Shown here piece by piece: positions 50,900 through 58,662 of a stretch of 64,000 nt of DNA. The DNA lies in NCBI GenBank assembly GCA_015709715.1, contig CP054184.1, positions 3,271,001-3,335,000 on the forward strand, given 5' to 3'. Numbering within the stretch: position 1 is the stretch's first letter; the number at the start of each line of letters is the position of its first letter. This DNA is from Nitrospira sp. GTDB lineage: Bacteria; Nitrospirota; Nitrospiria; Nitrospirales; Nitrospiraceae. Position numbers and translations under genes: made by a program. The notes under the pieces are model-generated. The model ran no database searches, was not told where the DNA came from, and worked only from the letters and a program-made list of their open reading frames with translations.

Positions 50900-50999
50900 T
50901 CGCGTGCTTTATCCGACCACAGTGTCGTTCATTGTTGTAGCGGTCTCTATACGAGTCGAGTTGTTCGCGCAGTGGGTTCAACACAAAGGAGGAGTTGTG

Positions 51000-51452
51000 A
51001 TGGGGTATCTTTCTAAGTTTGTGGGTGTGTGTGCAGCCGTCACCCTGTTGTCTGTGACGGTCGTGGGCGCCGAAGAGAAGGATCCGACCAAGGCACGCGT
51101 TCCGGCGGATCAGATCGCGGATGCCAAGGCCATGAAGAACCCGGTTGCGTCAACCCCTGAGAGCGTTGCCAAGGGCAAGGCTCTGTACGAGGGGAAGGGC
51201 ACCTGCTTCAACTGCCATGGCAAGGAAGGAAAGGGCGACGGTCCTGCCGGCGCCATCCTGAATCCGAGCCCACGCAACTTCACCAACTGCAAGTTCCACA
51301 AGAAGCGGAAAGACGGCGAGCTCTTCTGGGTCATCAAGAACGGCAGCCCCGGCACGGGCATGGTGTCGCTGGTTCCTGCCGCCATCACTGAAGAAGAAGC
51401 TTGGACGATCATCAACTACGAGCGGAGCTTCTGCAAGGGCGGAGAAGAGTAG
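51000..51452 (+). CDS. Periplasmic monohaem c-type cytochrome
   Basis: This 150-residue exported protein has a signal peptide (about 1-24, cleavage VVGA-EE). A class I cytochrome c domain carries the haem-binding CFNCH at 69-73, with C69 and C72 as thioether links and H73 as axial ligand. M121 (PGTGMVSL) is the likely second ligand. Two further cysteines (C97 in FTNCKFH and C145 in RSFCKGG) may form a disulfide that staples the C-terminal helix. It is a single-gene unit with a strong promoter and terminator, so abundant expression is expected. In a nitrite oxidiser such a protein could carry electrons to a terminal oxidase; that is inference. Confidence 0.93.
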   Translation: MGYLSKFVGVCAAVTLLSVTVVGAEEKDPTKARVPADQIADAKAMKNPVASTPESVAKGKALYEGKGTCFNCHGKEGKGDGPAGAILNPSPRNFTNCKFHKKRKDGELFWVIKNGSPGTGMVSLVPAAITEEEAWTIINYERSFCKGGEE

Positions 51453-51629: not shown

Positions 51630-53468
51630 TTACCGCCGCTGAGGAGCGGTGAGAACGATATCGAGGTTCTTACCGAGAGCTTGGTGGGCCGGTAGTGCCT
51701 GCGGCTGTTGGTCCTGCTTGAATTGGCTTCGCGCCGTAGGGGACACCTTCTCTAATAGGTAGGTCGTGGCTTCGCCCAAGGTTACCTCGCCGTTGCGATT
51801 GCTGTCGGCGTCGCCGCGAAGCCCACGCAGCAGGGTGTAGGTCAACAATCCGTGCCGCCAATCATCCGATTCCAAACTCTTTCCGAACCCCGTCGTGCCG
51901 ATGATGCGGAACACCGAGTTGCCCGCTCCGCCCCATTTAGGCATGGGGGGCTTGGCGCGCTCGGCCCCGCTCTTGATGACCGTTCCATCGAAGATGAAGA
52001 GGATCTGCTTGGCTTTCAGTTGTCCTAAGGCGGCGTCCAGTTCTTTAAGAGGATATAGGCGCGTCGTGCTACCCAAGGATCCATCATAGGGAATCAAGAA
52101 CGTTTCTCCGGTCGGGGAGACGATGGCCTGTCCGGCGAAGTAGATCGTCACCACGGAGTCCTTGGTGACCTTCGAGGGCAACCAATCGTGGATCGCTTCT
52201 TCGATGTCCGGGCGCAGGGCCCCCCAGTCTCGCAGTAACCTGACATTGTTGGGTGGAAGCCCCCCCAGGGTCTGAAAATAGGCGGCGACCGTTTCGGCGT
52301 CAAGCCCCGCATATTTTCGCGCTGGGATATGCGGCTCGCGATAACTGCCGAGACCAATTGCGAGCAGGTAGCCGTCGCGTCGCTGGAAACCGGTTGAGAC
52401 CGGCGGAATCCGGTCTACATCGTCACCGTTGAGGGGGGCTGCTTGAAGGGCAGCACGCAAGGCTTGGGCAGGAGGAGGGGCTTGGCCGTCGGCGGGTATG
52501 AGAGAAACCTGGAATTCCGCCTGCTGCTGCGAGAGTGCTTGGGGCAGTGTCGCTACGAACTCCAGGGATTTTGAGCCACCCGGTTCGATCGGCCCCACGG
52601 AGAGTTTCGTTGCTGGGAATTGTCCGATCAGGGCCGGAGGTCCGGCGAGCTGGACGGCAGTTGCGGGCACGGCAGAGGAACCGGCATTGACGACGTCGAT
52701 ACGGATGCGGATGCGCTCACCGCCCTCGAGCACTTGGTTGCCGTTTTCATCCAGGAGGGTGGCCTTGAAGGTTAAGGATGATGCGGCTGGTCCGGCCGGC
52801 GGAGCGGTCGAGCCGGTCGCTTGGGCGGTCGATGCGACAGTCTGAGCTGCCGACGCGGTGCCCGCCTTGGCGGCAGGATCGAATAACACGCGCGCCTCCT
52901 GCATGAACTGTGCGGCCAGCACTGCGGATGTATCCTGCACCAATGGATCAATCACATAGTCGCAGCGTTGTTGGGTCAATTCCAGCTGCAGCCGTTCTTT
53001 TCGAGCGGCCTGCAGCGGCCGTTCGGCCAAGGGCGTGCCCGCTTGATCGAAAAACTCGGCAAAGGCGTCCAGGCCGAGTTCAGCCGGTGCCCGATCATAG
53101 AGGCCGTCCGTTTGAATCTTGAGCCGGGGTTCCAAGAGGCGGAGGCGGACAATCACATCCGGTTTCGCGTCCGTGGCGTGGCCGTCTTGCATCACCACCG
53201 TTCGAAATGTCTGATGGGCGGCCTGTATGAGCAGGTCTTCGGCCGTCGAGCCGATCGCCAGCGGACGAAACCGACCACACCCGTCGAGATATTGAGTCTT
53301 GGCTTCGGAGAGCGACGGATCGACCTCGATTCGGGCTGTCAGGGGAAGCGGAGGTCCGAGGTCCGGAAGTGTTTGTCGCGCGAAGCGGGCCTTGATAGTG
53401 TCGCAGCCGCCGAACGTTGACAGCTGGACGAGTAGGATGCCGCAGACGCACAGGCGATGGAGTCTCAA
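51630..53468 (-). CDS. Caspase-fold (C14-like) lipoprotein lacking the catalytic dyad
   Basis: The protein has about 612 residues from TTG 53468, chosen because GGAGG lies about nine bases upstream. A signal peptide with lipobox FGGC (Cys 22) anchors it to a membrane. Residues about 23-200 form an uncharacterised domain, about 215-345 a beta-sandwich of CARDB or Ig-like type (LDENGNQVLEGGERIRIRIDVVN), and about 380-600 a caspase-like p20 region (GYLLAIGLGSY, YAGLDAETVAAYFQTLGG, SVVTIYFAGQ, KQILFIFDG). The usual catalytic His of FAGHG is Gln (codon 52128-52130). The position of the catalytic Cys of DAC reads Gly (codon 51984-51986). An EF-hand-like loop DSNRNGEVTLGE (51771-51806) is intact. 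Proteolysis is therefore unlikely; a calcium-responsive scaffold or receptor is inferred. Confidence 0.8.
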   Translation of the reverse strand: MRLHRLCVCGILLVQLSTFGGCDTIKARFARQTLPDLGPPLPLTARIEVDPSLSEAKTQYLDGCGRFRPLAIGSTAEDLLIQAAHQTFRTVVMQDGHATDAKPDVIVRLRLLEPRLKIQTDGLYDRAPAELGLDAFAEFFDQAGTPLAERPLQAARKERLQLELTQQRCDYVIDPLVQDTSAVLAAQFMQEARVLFDPAAKAGTASAAQTVASTAQATGSTAPPAGPAASSLTFKATLLDENGNQVLEGGERIRIRIDVVNAGSSAVPATAVQLAGPPALIGQFPATKLSVGPIEPGGSKSLEFVATLPQALSQQQAEFQVSLIPADGQAPPPAQALRAALQAAPLNGDDVDRIPPVSTGFQRRDGYLLAIGLGSYREPHIPARKYAGLDAETVAAYFQTLGGLPPNNVRLLRDWGALRPDIEEAIHDWLPSKVTKDSVVTIYFAGQAIVSPTGETFLIPYDGSLGSTTRLYPLKELDAALGQLKAKQILFIFDGTVIKSGAERAKPPMPKWGGAGNSVFRIIGTTGFGKSLESDDWRHGLLTYTLLRGLRGDADSNRNGEVTLGEATTYLLEKVSPTARSQFKQDQQPQALPAHQALGKNLDIVLTAPQRR

Positions 53469-53606
53469 AGCGACAGGTTCCTCCCCGGAGCCGATGTTGC
53501 TCCGGCGCAAGTCGAAGGGGAACGGTACAGGAAAGAATGGGGCATTGCAACCGCGTCCGCGGATCGGTTGCCACCCTGCGAGGGCTCGTTTATCCTACGC
53601 GCCATC

Positions 53607-55334
53607 ATGCTGGTGTTGGGCCTTGCCAATATGCGGGATGCGGCGGCTGCCTTGCTGTCCGACGGGCAGATTGCCGCGGCAGCCGAGGAAGAGCGGTTCG
53701 TTCGGGAAAAACACGTGACGGCGTTGCCCGTCCAGGCCATCCGGTATTGTCTGCGAGAGGCGGGCTGCTCCTTGCGCGACGTGGACGCGATCGTCGTGCC
53801 TTGGAAGTATTGGGTCGTGGGCCGCCGGCTGCGCCTCGCGTTGACTGCCATGGCGCGTTCGCCGGCCTTGTTTCGCGTCAAGGGCCGGCGGACGTACGAA
53901 CGGTTCCGTGGGGAATGGGTCGAATTGTTCCGGCTTCGGCAGGAGTTGCGTCGACGCGTGGAATCAGGCGGGCCTCGACCCTTGTTCCTGGACCATCACC
54001 TCTGCCATGCAGCCAGTTCATTCCTGGTGTCGCCGCACGACCGTGCGGCCATTCTCGTGGTTGACGGAGCCTCGGAAGCAGATACGGCCTTGCTGGCGAT
54101 CGGAGAGGGCACGCGGATCAGCGTCCTGGATCGCGTCCCGCTGCCCCATTCGCTCGGTCAATTTTATGCCGCGATGACTGCCTTCTTGGGATTTCGGCCG
54201 GACTACGATGAGTACATCGTGATGGGCCTCGCGGCGTCCGGCGATCCGATCTTCGCGGAGGCCTTGCGCCGTGAGGTGCTTCGTCTGTTGCCTCACGGGC
54301 GCTTCGAGCTGAACACGCGCGTACTCGATTTCCATCTGGCTCGAGCCGGGTTGTTCACGGAGGCGTTCACCCGTCTCTTCGGTCCACCGCGGCGTCCGAT
54401 GGATCCGTTGACGCAACGCCATCGAGACGTGGCGGCCAGTGCGCAGGTCGTGTTGGAAGAGGCGCTGCTCCATTTGGGGCGCCATCTACGGACCATCACC
54501 CGGGCGGAGTCGCTGTGCCTGGCAGGCGGAGTCGCCTACAATTGTGCCGTCAACGGTCGGCTGCGCGCGGAGCTTGGATTTAGGGAGGTCTACGTGCCTC
54601 CGGCGGCTGGTGATGCGGGTGCGGCGCTGGGAGCTGCCGTCTGGTGGACCGCCAGGCGTAAGGGAACAAGAACGAGCATGCCGTCGGCGTTCTGGGGGCC
54701 GCACTTCAATGCGGCCGATTGTCAGGCGGCGTTGGTGCGGGCCGGGTTGATCGCTGAGCCGCTCTCTGAACCGGATCTCTCCCATCGCGTGGCCACGGAA
54801 CTTGCGCGAGGCCGCTTGGTCTTTTGGTTCCAAGGACGCATGGAATGGGGCCCGCGTGCGCTAGGCAATCGGAGTCTACTCGCGGATCCGCGCCGCGAGG
54901 ACATGCGCGAACTCATCAATAGTAAGGTGAAGCAGCGGGAAGCCTTTCGTCCCTTCGCCCCCTCCGTGTTGGCCGAGCGAGCGACGGAGTTGTTCGAGCT
55001 GCCCGGACCGTCGGAGTTCATGCAGTTCACGGTGCGAGTGAAGGCTTCGGCGAAGGGGCTGATTCCAGCGGTGACGCATGTCGACGGTACCGCACGGGTC
55101 CAGACGGTCACGCGTGAGGCCAATCCCCGCTTCCACGCACTTTTGACGGCTTTTGATCACCTCACCGGCGTGCCGGTGTTGCTCAATACTTCGTTTAATG
55201 TGCAGGAACCGATCGTGTGTACGCCTGAAGACGCCGTACGGTGTTTCTTGCGGACACGGGTCGAGTGGCTGGTGCTCGGTACCCTGCTGGTGGGGCGCCC
55301 CTCAAGACCGTCTACCGTGACCCATGCCTGTTGA
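53607..55334 (+). CDS. NodU/CmcH-type carbamoyltransferase
   Basis: This 575-residue enzyme transfers carbamoyl from carbamoyl phosphate, through carbamoyl-adenylate, to a hydroxyl group. The N-terminal Kae1-like part shows AAAALLSDG, AAEEERFVREKH and LDHHLCHAASSF, with the metal-binding histidines. The middle has GLAASGD and CLAGGVAYNCAVNG, and the C-terminal YrdC-like/carbamoyl part has MEWGPRALGNRSLLADPR and LLNTSFNVQEPIVCTPEDAV. Known members carbamoylate Nod factors, antibiotics or surface glycans. The following GT-C-like gene overlaps by 11 bases, so a role in decorating a glycan is likely by context. It is divergent from the caspase-fold lipoprotein gene. Confidence 0.92.
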   Translation: MLVLGLANMRDAAAALLSDGQIAAAAEEERFVREKHVTALPVQAIRYCLREAGCSLRDVDAIVVPWKYWVVGRRLRLALTAMARSPALFRVKGRRTYERFRGEWVELFRLRQELRRRVESGGPRPLFLDHHLCHAASSFLVSPHDRAAILVVDGASEADTALLAIGEGTRISVLDRVPLPHSLGQFYAAMTAFLGFRPDYDEYIVMGLAASGDPIFAEALRREVLRLLPHGRFELNTRVLDFHLARAGLFTEAFTRLFGPPRRPMDPLTQRHRDVAASAQVVLEEALLHLGRHLRTITRAESLCLAGGVAYNCAVNGRLRAELGFREVYVPPAAGDAGAALGAAVWWTARRKGTRTSMPSAFWGPHFNAADCQAALVRAGLIAEPLSEPDLSHRVATELARGRLVFWFQGRMEWGPRALGNRSLLADPRREDMRELINSKVKQREAFRPFAPSVLAERATELFELPGPSEFMQFTVRVKASAKGLIPAVTHVDGTARVQTVTREANPRFHALLTAFDHLTGVPVLLNTSFNVQEPIVCTPEDAVRCFLRTRVEWLVLGTLLVGRPSRPSTVTHAC

Positions 55335-56868
55335 GCCTCCCCGCTCGGCAGCGTTTCCGTTGCAGTCGGCGCTTCGGATTCTTCTGGATTTGCTCCTTCT
55401 CTGCTTCGCGCTGAACTTGGTGCTCCAACCGTTGGTGGAGCCGGACTTTGGCTGGCATCTGCGTGCCGGGCTGGATTGGCTCTCGCACGGGTTGCGGCTG
55501 CCGGATACCGATCCCTACTCCCATACGATGCCCGACTGGCGATGGGTGGAACATGCTTGGCTGACCGATGGCATCGTGGCCCTGCTGTATCGGACCTTCG
55601 GCGCGTTCGGTGGATTGGTGGTGATCCTGTGGTTTGGTCTGGTGACCCTCCTGGCCTGGTGGGCGGCTGCTGCCGCGGCTGCTGTCTCGCGGACCTACCG
55701 ATTGATCGCCATGGTCGCCGGTCTTTGGGTGGCCTTGCCCTTTCTTGGTGCCAGGACACAATTGGTCAGCGTACTCGGCTTCGCGGTGCTGTTGTGGTGG
55801 TGGCCTCAGATCCGCCAAGGCCGGCGACAATGGCTGTGGGGCTTGCCGCCGTTTTTTGTACTTTGGGCCAACCTCCATGGAGGCTTCACCGCCGGGCTCT
55901 TTCTGTTGGGGCTATTGTTGCTCTCGTCGCTGTTGTTGCGCGTGACAGTCGATCGGTGGCCTGCGGTGGCTGCGTGGCTCGACGAGCCGATCTTGTCATG
56001 GGAAAGATGGCTGCATCTCTCGCTGATCGTACTGGTGGCGGCGCTGGTGACGCTGCTCAATCCCTACGGGTGGCGGCTGCATGCCGAGATCTACGACTCG
56101 CTGACGGATCGATTTATGGTCGACACGTTGCGGGAGTGGCAGCCGGTCTCTTTGCAAGGATGGGCCGGCCGGGCCTACGGCTGGTATTTGGCGGGACTGG
56201 CCGTCCTCGTCATCGGGTGGTATCGACGTATCGAACCCGTACGATGGATGCTGGTGCTGGTGATGCTTGCACTGTCGCTACGGCATTGGAGGAACGTCAC
56301 CCTGTTTTTGATCGTGAGTCTGCCGCTTGCCGCGGAGCTGCTCCCGCTGGTGACAGCCTCGCTCCGCCGGTGGGCGCCGATCCTGACGCGTCAACCGAAC
56401 ATCGCGCTGGGGCTGGTGACGTTGACGGTGGGGGGGACGCTCTCAAGTTTGGGGACCGACCATCTGATCCATGTCTGGCGATCCGGTACGGCCACGGAAG
56501 CCTCGTTTGAAGAGACCGAGTACCCGATCGAAGCCGTTCGCTGGATTCGGCACCATCGCAGCGAACTCGGCAGCAGAGTCTATAACGACTATGGCCACGG
56601 TGGCTTTCTGCTGTGGCAATTGCCGGGCGAGCGCATCTTCATCGACGGCAGGATGCCGGCGTGGCACCTCGGAGACCGTTGGATTTTTCGGGACTATGTG
56701 GAACTGAACCGGGAGGAGGCGCCGACGCTTGTACTATTGGATCGATACGAGGTGGACTGGGCCATCACGCAACGCGGCGGTCCGGTCGCTCGTGCGTTGG
56801 AATCTCAGCGAGGATGGCGCACCCTCTACACCGATGAAAAGGTGGTCATTCTGCGCCGTCCGGCCTGA
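55324..56868 (+). CDS. GT-C-like multi-pass membrane protein
   Basis: This 514-residue inner-membrane protein has about eleven helices and a C-terminal soluble portion (about 390-514). An acidic residue early in the first periplasmic loop, EPDFGWHLRAG, followed by DTDPYSHTMPDWRWVEHAWL, resembles the Asp-containing loop of GT-C lipid-linked sugar transferases. The C-terminal part has NDYGHGGFLLWQLPGERIFIDGR, a pattern seen in this uncharacterised family. It overlaps the end of the carbamoyltransferase gene and is convergent with a GT2 gene 18 bases away. Sugar donor and acceptor are unknown. Confidence 0.72.
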   Translation: MPVEPPRSAAFPLQSALRILLDLLLLCFALNLVLQPLVEPDFGWHLRAGLDWLSHGLRLPDTDPYSHTMPDWRWVEHAWLTDGIVALLYRTFGAFGGLVVILWFGLVTLLAWWAAAAAAAVSRTYRLIAMVAGLWVALPFLGARTQLVSVLGFAVLLWWWPQIRQGRRQWLWGLPPFFVLWANLHGGFTAGLFLLGLLLLSSLLLRVTVDRWPAVAAWLDEPILSWERWLHLSLIVLVAALVTLLNPYGWRLHAEIYDSLTDRFMVDTLREWQPVSLQGWAGRAYGWYLAGLAVLVIGWYRRIEPVRWMLVLVMLALSLRHWRNVTLFLIVSLPLAAELLPLVTASLRRWAPILTRQPNIALGLVTLTVGGTLSSLGTDHLIHVWRSGTATEASFEETEYPIEAVRWIRHHRSELGSRVYNDYGHGGFLLWQLPGERIFIDGRMPAWHLGDRWIFRDYVELNREEAPTLVLLDRYEVDWAITQRGGPVARALESQRGWRTLYTDEKVVILRRPA

Positions 56869-56886
56869 TTCGCTGCCGTTGCTCTG

Positions 56887-57699
56887 TTACGGATGGGAGG
56901 GTTCGATGGACGCCAAGGCCGGTTCGATCGGCTGTAAGAGCTCACGGCTTCGAGGATGGTAGAACCCCTCTGCCTCACGCCTCCGAATCTCCAGCAGTTC
57001 CTGCAGCATCGTGAAACCGTCCCGCCAGACGCGGACTTTGGAGCCCGGCTGGTCGGCCCAATTGACCGGCACTTCCGCGATGCGGTAGCCGCGTCGCTGG
57101 GCGACGTAGAGCACTTCGAGGTCGAATGCATACCCATTCACGCAGGTCACCGCAAACAGGTCCTGGGCTACGGAGCGGCGGAACAACTTGAATCCGCATT
57201 GGGTGTCGGCGAGGGGAAGCCCAAGACGCTGCACCATGCCATTGAAGGTCGTTCCCAATGCGCTGCGCAGCCAGCGCGCCTGAACGGTGTAGCCCGGTTG
57301 CCGTGAGGCCAAGGCGCGTGATCCGATGGCCAGGTCTGCCCCCGCCTCAAGCGCCTGCTCCAAGTGGGAGAATTCTTCGATAGGGGTGGCCCCGTCGGCA
57401 TCCGTAAACAGTTGCAGCAGTCCCCGCGCTGTCTGCATGCCATGGCGGACGGCGGCCCCCTTTCCCATGTTGTTGGGCAGGCGAATCAGCCGAATCTGCG
57501 GAATCCGTAGGGCCGCAGACTCCACCTCTCGCGCGGTTCCGTCCAAGCTGCCGTCGTCGACGACGAGGATTTCATAGGCCAACCTGCGTTGGGTCAAATG
57601 GGTTGCGATATGCTGGAGAGTCGGGGGGAGGCGATGGGCTTCATTGTAGGCCGGGACGATGACCGAGAGATACGGCGCTTGAGTCGAGGTGAGTGTCAC
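56887..57699 (-). CDS. GT2 family glycosyltransferase (dolichyl-phosphate glucosyltransferase/DPM1-like)
   Basis: This protein of about 270 residues has a GT-A fold with SVIVPAYNEAHRLPPTL, VVDDGSLDGTAREV, NMGKGAAVRHGM, the metal motif TDADGATPIEE and FKLFRR near the acceptor site. This is the ALG5/DPM1-like set that moves a sugar from a nucleotide to a polyprenyl phosphate. It has no membrane helix at the C-terminus. The start at GTG 57699, with GGAGG ten bases upstream, is chosen because the conserved region begins right after; the frame is open to 57807. It could supply polyprenyl-phosphate sugar to the GT-C-like protein encoded next to it. Confidence 0.85.
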   Translation of the reverse strand: MTLTSTQAPYLSVIVPAYNEAHRLPPTLQHIATHLTQRRLAYEILVVDDGSLDGTAREVESAALRIPQIRLIRLPNNMGKGAAVRHGMQTARGLLQLFTDADGATPIEEFSHLEQALEAGADLAIGSRALASRQPGYTVQARWLRSALGTTFNGMVQRLGLPLADTQCGFKLFRRSVAQDLFAVTCVNGYAFDLEVLYVAQRRGYRIAEVPVNWADQPGSKVRVWRDGFTMLQELLEIRRREAEGFYHPRSRELLQPIEPALASIEPSHP

Positions 57700-57891
57700 G
57701 CGGAGACAGCCTCCAGCCGGAGTGTGTTGCTGCCGATGGTCCTTGACGCGTCGCTGTTGGGCCGACACGGTAGCCGAGCCGGAGGGGAATTGCAAGCGCA
57801 GCGTCACGGTTCTTGACAGGCTCCCCCTCCGGAGGCGATCGTGATTGGGCGCGAGGCCGTGCGCACGGAATGAAGCGGAAGGAGGCCTGTC

Positions 57892-58662
57892 ATGTCCCGC
57901 TATCGTACCCGGCTTCTGGTCCTGATCGGCGTCATGCTGTCGGTGGGCTGTGCAGGGCCCACTCCCGCTAGTCGGCTCGCCCAGTACGTACCGATTTCCA
58001 GGCCGGGTGACTCCGCACTCACCCGGTTACCGGATCAGCGGCCTGTTCGAGCGACGTTGGTCCTTATCGCCGATCGTTCAGAGTCGGAAGCGCCGCCGTT
58101 GTTACCGGAGGTGGTGCAAGAGCGGTTGGCCGAGAAGCTGCGCGAGGACATCAATCGGGGCTTTCCCATTGTCATCGAGCGGGTCGTACAGTTGGGGGAG
58201 ATTCCGGCCGGAGGGGCCAAACTCGATTGGCGAACCGTGGCCGGGCAGCAGGGGGCGGAGTACCTCGTGGTGGCGGTGTTATCCGGTGTGGAACAGGAGT
58301 ATCCCGTCTCCTTGTTCCTAGGCTGGACGACTCATCGTCAGCCGGGCGTGCGGCGGGATCACTGGGCGCTCGTTGAGGCCGCGTTGATCGAGGGCCGGAG
58401 CGGGCGAGTGGTGCTGCAGGCGGAAGGGCGGGCCTGGGCGACGTTGGATCGTCCCACGGCGCCGGGGATCTCGCAATGGTACCCTGTCATCTATTTGCGG
58501 CCGCAGGATCCGGAGCGGCGCATCTGGCCCTCCAACTACGAGGTCGCCCCGGTGACGCTCCAAGTCGTCGCCACGGAACGGGCCGCCAAGCGGTTGGCGG
58601 ACAATCTCCAGCGGGCGTGGGTGGAACGGCGGGATGTCGAACTGGCTTCCATGTCTCGGTGA
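57892..58662 (+). CDS. Lipoprotein of unknown function
   Basis: This 256-residue lipoprotein has a signal peptide with lipobox SVGC (Cys 20) and a mature alpha/beta domain. It includes RATLVLIADRSESE, LPEVVQERLAEKLREDINRGFPIVIERVVQLGE and EYLVVAVLSGVEQEYPVSLFL, a layout like periplasmic proteins related to the LPS or peptidoglycan assembly lipoproteins. No named family recognised. AAGGAGG precedes the ATG. It is divergent from the GT2 gene, and htrA follows 131 bases downstream. Confidence 0.65.
   Translation: MSRYRTRLLVLIGVMLSVGCAGPTPASRLAQYVPISRPGDSALTRLPDQRPVRATLVLIADRSESEAPPLLPEVVQERLAEKLREDINRGFPIVIERVVQLGEIPAGGAKLDWRTVAGQQGAEYLVVAVLSGVEQEYPVSLFLGWTTHRQPGVRRDHWALVEAALIEGRSGRVVLQAEGRAWATLDRPTAPGISQWYPVIYLRPQDPERRIWPSNYEVAPVTLQVVATERAAKRLADNLQRAWVERRDVELASMSR

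Follow-up and report, generated by a model that had tools for sequence, protein, structure and literature searches.

Bacterial caspase homologues are usually discussed as cell-death or defense proteases. A gene of Nitrospira sp. (contig CP054184.1 of assembly GCA_015709715.1) raises the question of what such a fold does in an envelope lipoprotein that lacks the catalytic residues. The gene lies within the window that we analyzed, a stretch of 64,000 nucleotides (positions 3,271,001 to 3,335,000) from a 4.16-Mb, Nitrospira-type genome, and an orthologue was present in all same-genus relatives searched (28/28). Our data support a caspase fold that is anchored by lipid, catalytically dead, and fixed across the lineage, and whose EF-hand loop is intact (Table 1). 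The TTG start codon was kept in 27 of 27 aligned genus orthologues (window included). In the same 27 sequences, Cys22 of the lipobox (...STFGGC22) was conserved and followed by Asp or Glu, which upholds the earlier lipobox call and places the product among bacterial lipoproteins; the Phe at position -3 of the window protein is nonclassical. The gap between this gene and its divergent neighbor (53469 to 53558) contains two blocks that are strongly conserved in the genus, GGTTGCAATGCCC and TTCCTGTACCGTTCC, possibly a promoter or regulator site.

In the full-length AF2 model, the mean pLDDT was 84, with values near 93 across most of the C-terminal domain; the pTM of 0.53 leaves the packing between domains uncertain. 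A Foldseek search against PDB returned MALT1 as the top match (E = 2.8e-10), together with caspases 8/9 and metacaspases, at a probability of 1.00. Profile-profile alignment (hhalign) of the C-terminal domain with six Nitrospirales orthocaspases, a set restricted to sequences with intact catalytic His and Cys (H/C-intact), gave an E value of 3.8e-53. By both methods the domain has the caspase-type alpha/beta fold (clan CD, family C14), so the caspase scaffold of the original prediction is present in the predicted structure. By itself, the window protein had no C14 match in Pfam or NCBIfam, and the assignment therefore required relatives and structure; PF00656 matched 17 of 50 family members. 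A phmmer search of the window protein against PDB gave no match, and PADLOC gave no defense match for it. The best-matching structures, those of the MALT1 paracaspase (3v4o and 3uo8), have the caspase fold beside an Ig-type domain, as here. Unlike the window protein, MALT1 is eukaryotic, is an active Cys protease, and has no lipobox (identity, about 15%), and we know of no EF loop of such kind in it.

A separate AF2 model of residues 38 to 203 (pLDDT, 88.8; pTM, 0.84) matched an LptE-like structure best (5tse; E = 3.1e-6), followed by LptE, HpaA, CsgG, and PelC. The TM-scores were modest (about 0.45 to 0.55), so this LptE/CsgG-type similarity holds at the superfamily level at best; identity in the structural matches was about 6 to 17%. 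To our knowledge, none of these envelope lipoproteins carries a caspase domain. Two conserved cysteines in this domain, Cys64 and Cys169, are candidate disulfide partners. The Ig-like middle domain that had been proposed was only weakly matched by the window protein's own sequence (CARDB, E = 0.18) and gained support from Pfam matches in relatives (NPCBM_assoc/NEW3, best E = 8.1e-7; CARDB, E = 4.5e-4) and from the beta-rich prediction.

Table 1. Features of the pseudo-caspase gene and its product (positions are those of the window)
Feature	Residues	Position	Strand	Evidence or remark
Whole gene, lipid-anchored pseudo-orthocaspase	612 aa	51630..53468	-	TTG start
Shine-Dalgarno-like GGGGAGG		53480..53486	-	gaggagg-type site upstream in nearly all 16 genus orthologues printed
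Signal peptide and lipobox	to Cys22	53403..53468	-	Asp at +2
LptE/CsgG/PelC-type lipoprotein domain	38-203	52860..53357	-	AF2, Foldseek
Candidate disulfide partner	Cys64	53277..53279	-	invariant in alignment A4, at least 90% in alignment A1
Candidate disulfide partner	Cys169	52962..52964	-	invariant in alignments A1 and A4
CARDB/NEW3-like beta-sandwich	about 231-342	52443..52778	-	Pfam in relatives; strands in AF2 model
Pseudo-caspase domain	362-608	51645..52385	-	Foldseek, hhalign
First S1-pocket Asp	Asp390	52299..52301	-	90/98 in pseudo group, 45/45 in H/C group
Catalytic His position	Gln447	52128..52130	-	MAFFT, profile-profile alignment
S1-pocket Asp two before Cys site	Asp494	51987..51989	-	93/98 Asp, plus 4 Glu
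Catalytic Cys position	Thr496	51981..51983	-	MAFFT, profile-profile alignment
EF-hand loop DSNRNGEVTLGE	555-566	51771..51806	-	D555-SNRNGEVTLG-E566, canonical spacing

To locate the catalytic dyad, we aligned the domain with intact orthocaspases. Gln447 fell in the His column, as had been predicted. For the Cys, the original prediction had named a Gly (51984 to 51986), which proved to be one residue early: both MAFFT and profile-profile alignment paired D494-G495-T496 with the D-S-C of intact orthocaspases, so Gly495 stands opposite the Ser preceding the Cys and Thr496 takes the Cys column. With both catalytic residues substituted on a p20 fold, the protein is a pseudo-orthocaspase and not an active orthocaspase. 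Among 98 homologues of the same architecture, Cys was never found; the column held 13 residue types (T31, S26, M13, P9, I5, A3, K3, G2, V2, N1, L1, R1, and Q1) and ranked 209 of 234 in the caspase domain for conservation by entropy, which shows that it is free to vary. The His column was Q56, R20, H9, L6, N4, V2, and M1, whereas His was present in 45 of 45 Cys-intact relatives. The loss of Cys is thus common to the homologues, and neither Gln (56/98) nor any single residue at the Cys site is fixed. The acidic S1-pocket Asp pair (pocket definition from PMC6426788) is aligned and conserved; by motif position, we infer that Asp390 and Asp494 are the equivalents of D95 and D211 of TbMC2.

The EF-hand loop lies exactly where it had been predicted, and it is far more constrained than the dyad. 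D555, G560, and E566 were invariant (zero entropy) in 98 of 98 homologues, position 557 was always Asn or Asp, and position 559 was one of these in 96 of 98. The 12-residue loop follows Dx[DN]x[DN]GxIxxxE, with Val at the Ile position in the window protein, and profile searches matched the region to EF-hand proteins. Since the dyad varies while the loop does not, constraint has moved off the dyad with the loop kept, and the likely role of the protein in the cell envelope is to hold or sense something rather than to cut it. Catalytically dead proteins are not alone in carrying the loop. H/C-intact Nitrospirota orthocaspases (e.g., L057, L054, L129, and L132) have a homologous caspase domain with the loop at an equal position, and some (L054 and L059) matched the pseudo-caspase family profile over nearly full length; they differ from the window protein in having the catalytic His and Cys and in sometimes having lost the loop. 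Most of these relatives carry it (D1 in 35/45, G6 in 37/45, and E12 in 37/45), so it was inherited rather than newly acquired and may be purely structural. The loop could accordingly be a structural metal site left from active orthocaspases, in a domain that acts as a passive protein-binding scaffold and does not sense calcium. Its placement between two helices in the C-terminal part of the caspase domain (AF2 model) fits this explanation, which we consider possible but somewhat unlikely. Conservation of D1, G6, and E12 is higher in the pseudo clade than in the intact group, with its several losses, although the pseudo group is phylogenetically narrower and the two levels are not strictly comparable.

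Pseudo-proteases often regulate active paralogues, as cFLIP does with caspase-8. The window protein could likewise act on an active caspase of its own cell, as a decoy or a regulator, and intact C14 proteins do occur in the phylum. A PF00656 search of its own genome, however, yielded a single H/C-intact protein (L075), which has no obvious signal peptide; the remaining matches were a protein in which Asn replaces the Cys and a fusion to SIR2 that lacks the Cys part. This search found no intact C14 partner in the compartment of the lipoprotein, and for that reason we regard a decoy function as improbable. The Cys-to-Asn protein (L036:4375-5154, plus strand; own genome 3904413) is caspase-like with an apparent signal peptide and a TPR-like C-terminal part; it keeps the His, has Asn at the Cys site (Ser in L068), and represents an independent loss of the nucleophile. 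In the SIR2 fusion (L077:1-1905, plus strand; own genome near 60470), the SIR2 domain is followed by an apparently circularly permuted caspase, with the p10/EF-loop part ahead of a p20 part containing YFSGHG. A TAG ends its frame at ...KVIILDF, the place at which a Cys motif is expected; this could be a truncation.

Proteolysis with another nucleophile, such as Thr496, is very improbable: Thr and Ser do predominate in the Cys column, but we rejected Thr496 because 11 other residue types also occur there, from Met and Pro to Arg and Gln, and because most homologues have lost the His.

Next, we examined how widely the gene is conserved. A contig scan gave one relative (a Nitrospira metagenome-assembled genome), and a wider genome search supplied the larger sample. 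Full-length homologues occurred throughout families f1 to f3 of Nitrospirales, as sampled here, with no match in three of four genomes of family f4, so the three-domain family is not strictly order-wide. Outside Nitrospirales (15 genomes examined place by place), only the middle and caspase parts, or the caspase part alone, were matched. In a quick maximum likelihood tree of 90 caspase domains with the dyad columns removed, the 51 dereplicated three-domain homologues from Nitrospirales grouped into a single clade (SH-aLRT, 99), and no intact protein fell within it. The dead site is therefore fixed across the lineage and is not the decay of one strain. The nearest rows were H/C proteins of other Nitrospirota classes, and two further pseudo groups (L004/L068 and L152) had separate origins. 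NG86 dN/dS of the caspase domain was 0.07 to 0.26 in the ten closest orthologue pairs, and reading frames were open in the genus orthologues, with the single exception of L023 (one in-frame TAG). Despite the lost dyad, the idea of a decaying orthocaspase pseudogene is refuted by these open frames, by dN/dS well below 1, and by full-length homologues in most of the order, and deserves practically no credence.

Synteny, together with the low dN/dS, shows that the gene is under purifying selection and not decaying. In the Nitrospiraceae examined, the gene order was MTAP, PfkB, TPR, RodZ, cytochrome c, the pseudo-caspase, NodU-type carbamoyltransferase, membrane protein, GT2, lipoprotein, HtrA, and TatC. 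Genome G033 lacks the NodU-to-lipoprotein block, and its pseudo-caspase gene adjoins HtrA. In two f3 genomes, the gene is adjacent to, and divergent from, a homologue of the lipoprotein at 57892. In the window, positions 53607 to 57807, between the pseudo-caspase gene and the HtrA-TatC group, encode the NodU-type carbamoyltransferase, a multispanning protein, and the GT2; given its absence from G033, this block either is an insertion or was lost in that genome. The cytochrome c encoded by the convergent neighbor (50904 to 51452) is similar to cytochrome 579, with a match to NF033864 that did not reach the curated cutoff (E = 1.4e-42).

The same genome encodes a second pseudo-caspase lipoprotein of this family (L035:4005-5918, minus strand; own genome 1488531-1490393), with Arg for His and Ser for Cys. 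This paralogue lies directly downstream, on the same strand, of a cluster encoding a bd-like oxidase, cytochromes c, and an EB_dh protein, and its placement behind the oxidase cluster was the same in 20 of 20 further genomes. The EB_dh protein is NXR-gamma-like, matching the model of the DMSO reductase type II heme b (gamma) subunit below the cutoff. Such clusters in N. moscoviensis have been discussed as candidates for a respiratory supercomplex or NXR anchor (PMC6606698). The respiratory link belongs to the paralogue; the window gene's own link is its convergent cytochrome c neighbor only.

The non-proteolytic reading can be set out as a series of steps. An ancestor within Nitrospirales would have lost the Cys nucleophile, after which the clade let the dyad drift and retained the fold together with its acidic S1 pocket and the EF-type loop. 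The lipidated protein would face the periplasm, probably at the inner membrane, judging from the +2 Asp/Glu under E. coli sorting rules. Ca2+ in the EF loop may hold the loop-bearing segment, and the former substrate cleft may bind a protein or peptide, probably basic, without cleaving it. The protein would then serve as a scaffold, tether, or assembly factor of an envelope complex, perhaps a respiratory one. The best explanation that we can offer is a calcium-stabilized, non-proteolytic binding module in an inner-envelope complex, for which we see about an even chance. Doubtful, if more specific, is the reading that the caspase fold was repurposed in the Nitrospirales ancestor into a periplasmic assembly factor or tether, calcium-gated and non-proteolytic, that serves respiratory or nitrite-oxidizing complexes, and that two paralogues are specialized, one for the bd-like oxidase/NXR-gamma-like cluster and the window gene for another envelope complex.

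Dead caspase homologues are not themselves new in bacteria. Dyad conservation in Nitrospirae was only 57% in a 2012 survey (PMC3501461), and pseudo-orthocaspases make up 8.6% of bacterial orthocaspases, with 90% of them from Alphaproteobacteria and Cyanobacteria (Klemencic et al. 2019, PMC6426788). In Synechocystis, deletion of the pseudo-orthocaspase SyOC led to higher oxidative-stress tolerance (PMC7889975). Because such proteins were already described, deadness alone does not establish the "new use of the fold" that had been suggested. The known proteins share with the Nitrospirales clade the p20 fold, a substituted His-Cys dyad, lineage-conserved clades, and the pocket Asp pair, acidic residues that the cyanobacterial proteins likewise retain (PMC6426788). 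They are mostly cyanobacterial or alphaproteobacterial with YS as the commonest dyad, whereas in the Nitrospirales clade the substitutions are Q/R/N/L plus T/S/M/P, the EF loop is invariant, and the protein also has a lipobox and an LptE/CsgG-type domain. In the literature searched (which covered few subscription journals), we found no description of this envelope lipoprotein family, in which the dyad is released and the EF loop fixed, no mention of caspases in the Nitrospira papers searched by term, and no relevant report of a DxDxDG motif in a caspase. Nitrifying bacteria seem to keep the caspase fold as a core part of their envelope, with its catalytic site released from selection and its EF-type loop fixed. 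The family makes it possible to examine cleanly what the caspase fold of bacteria does without cutting, and the constant position of the paralogue behind a respiratory cluster provides concrete candidate partners in organisms central to the nitrogen cycle.
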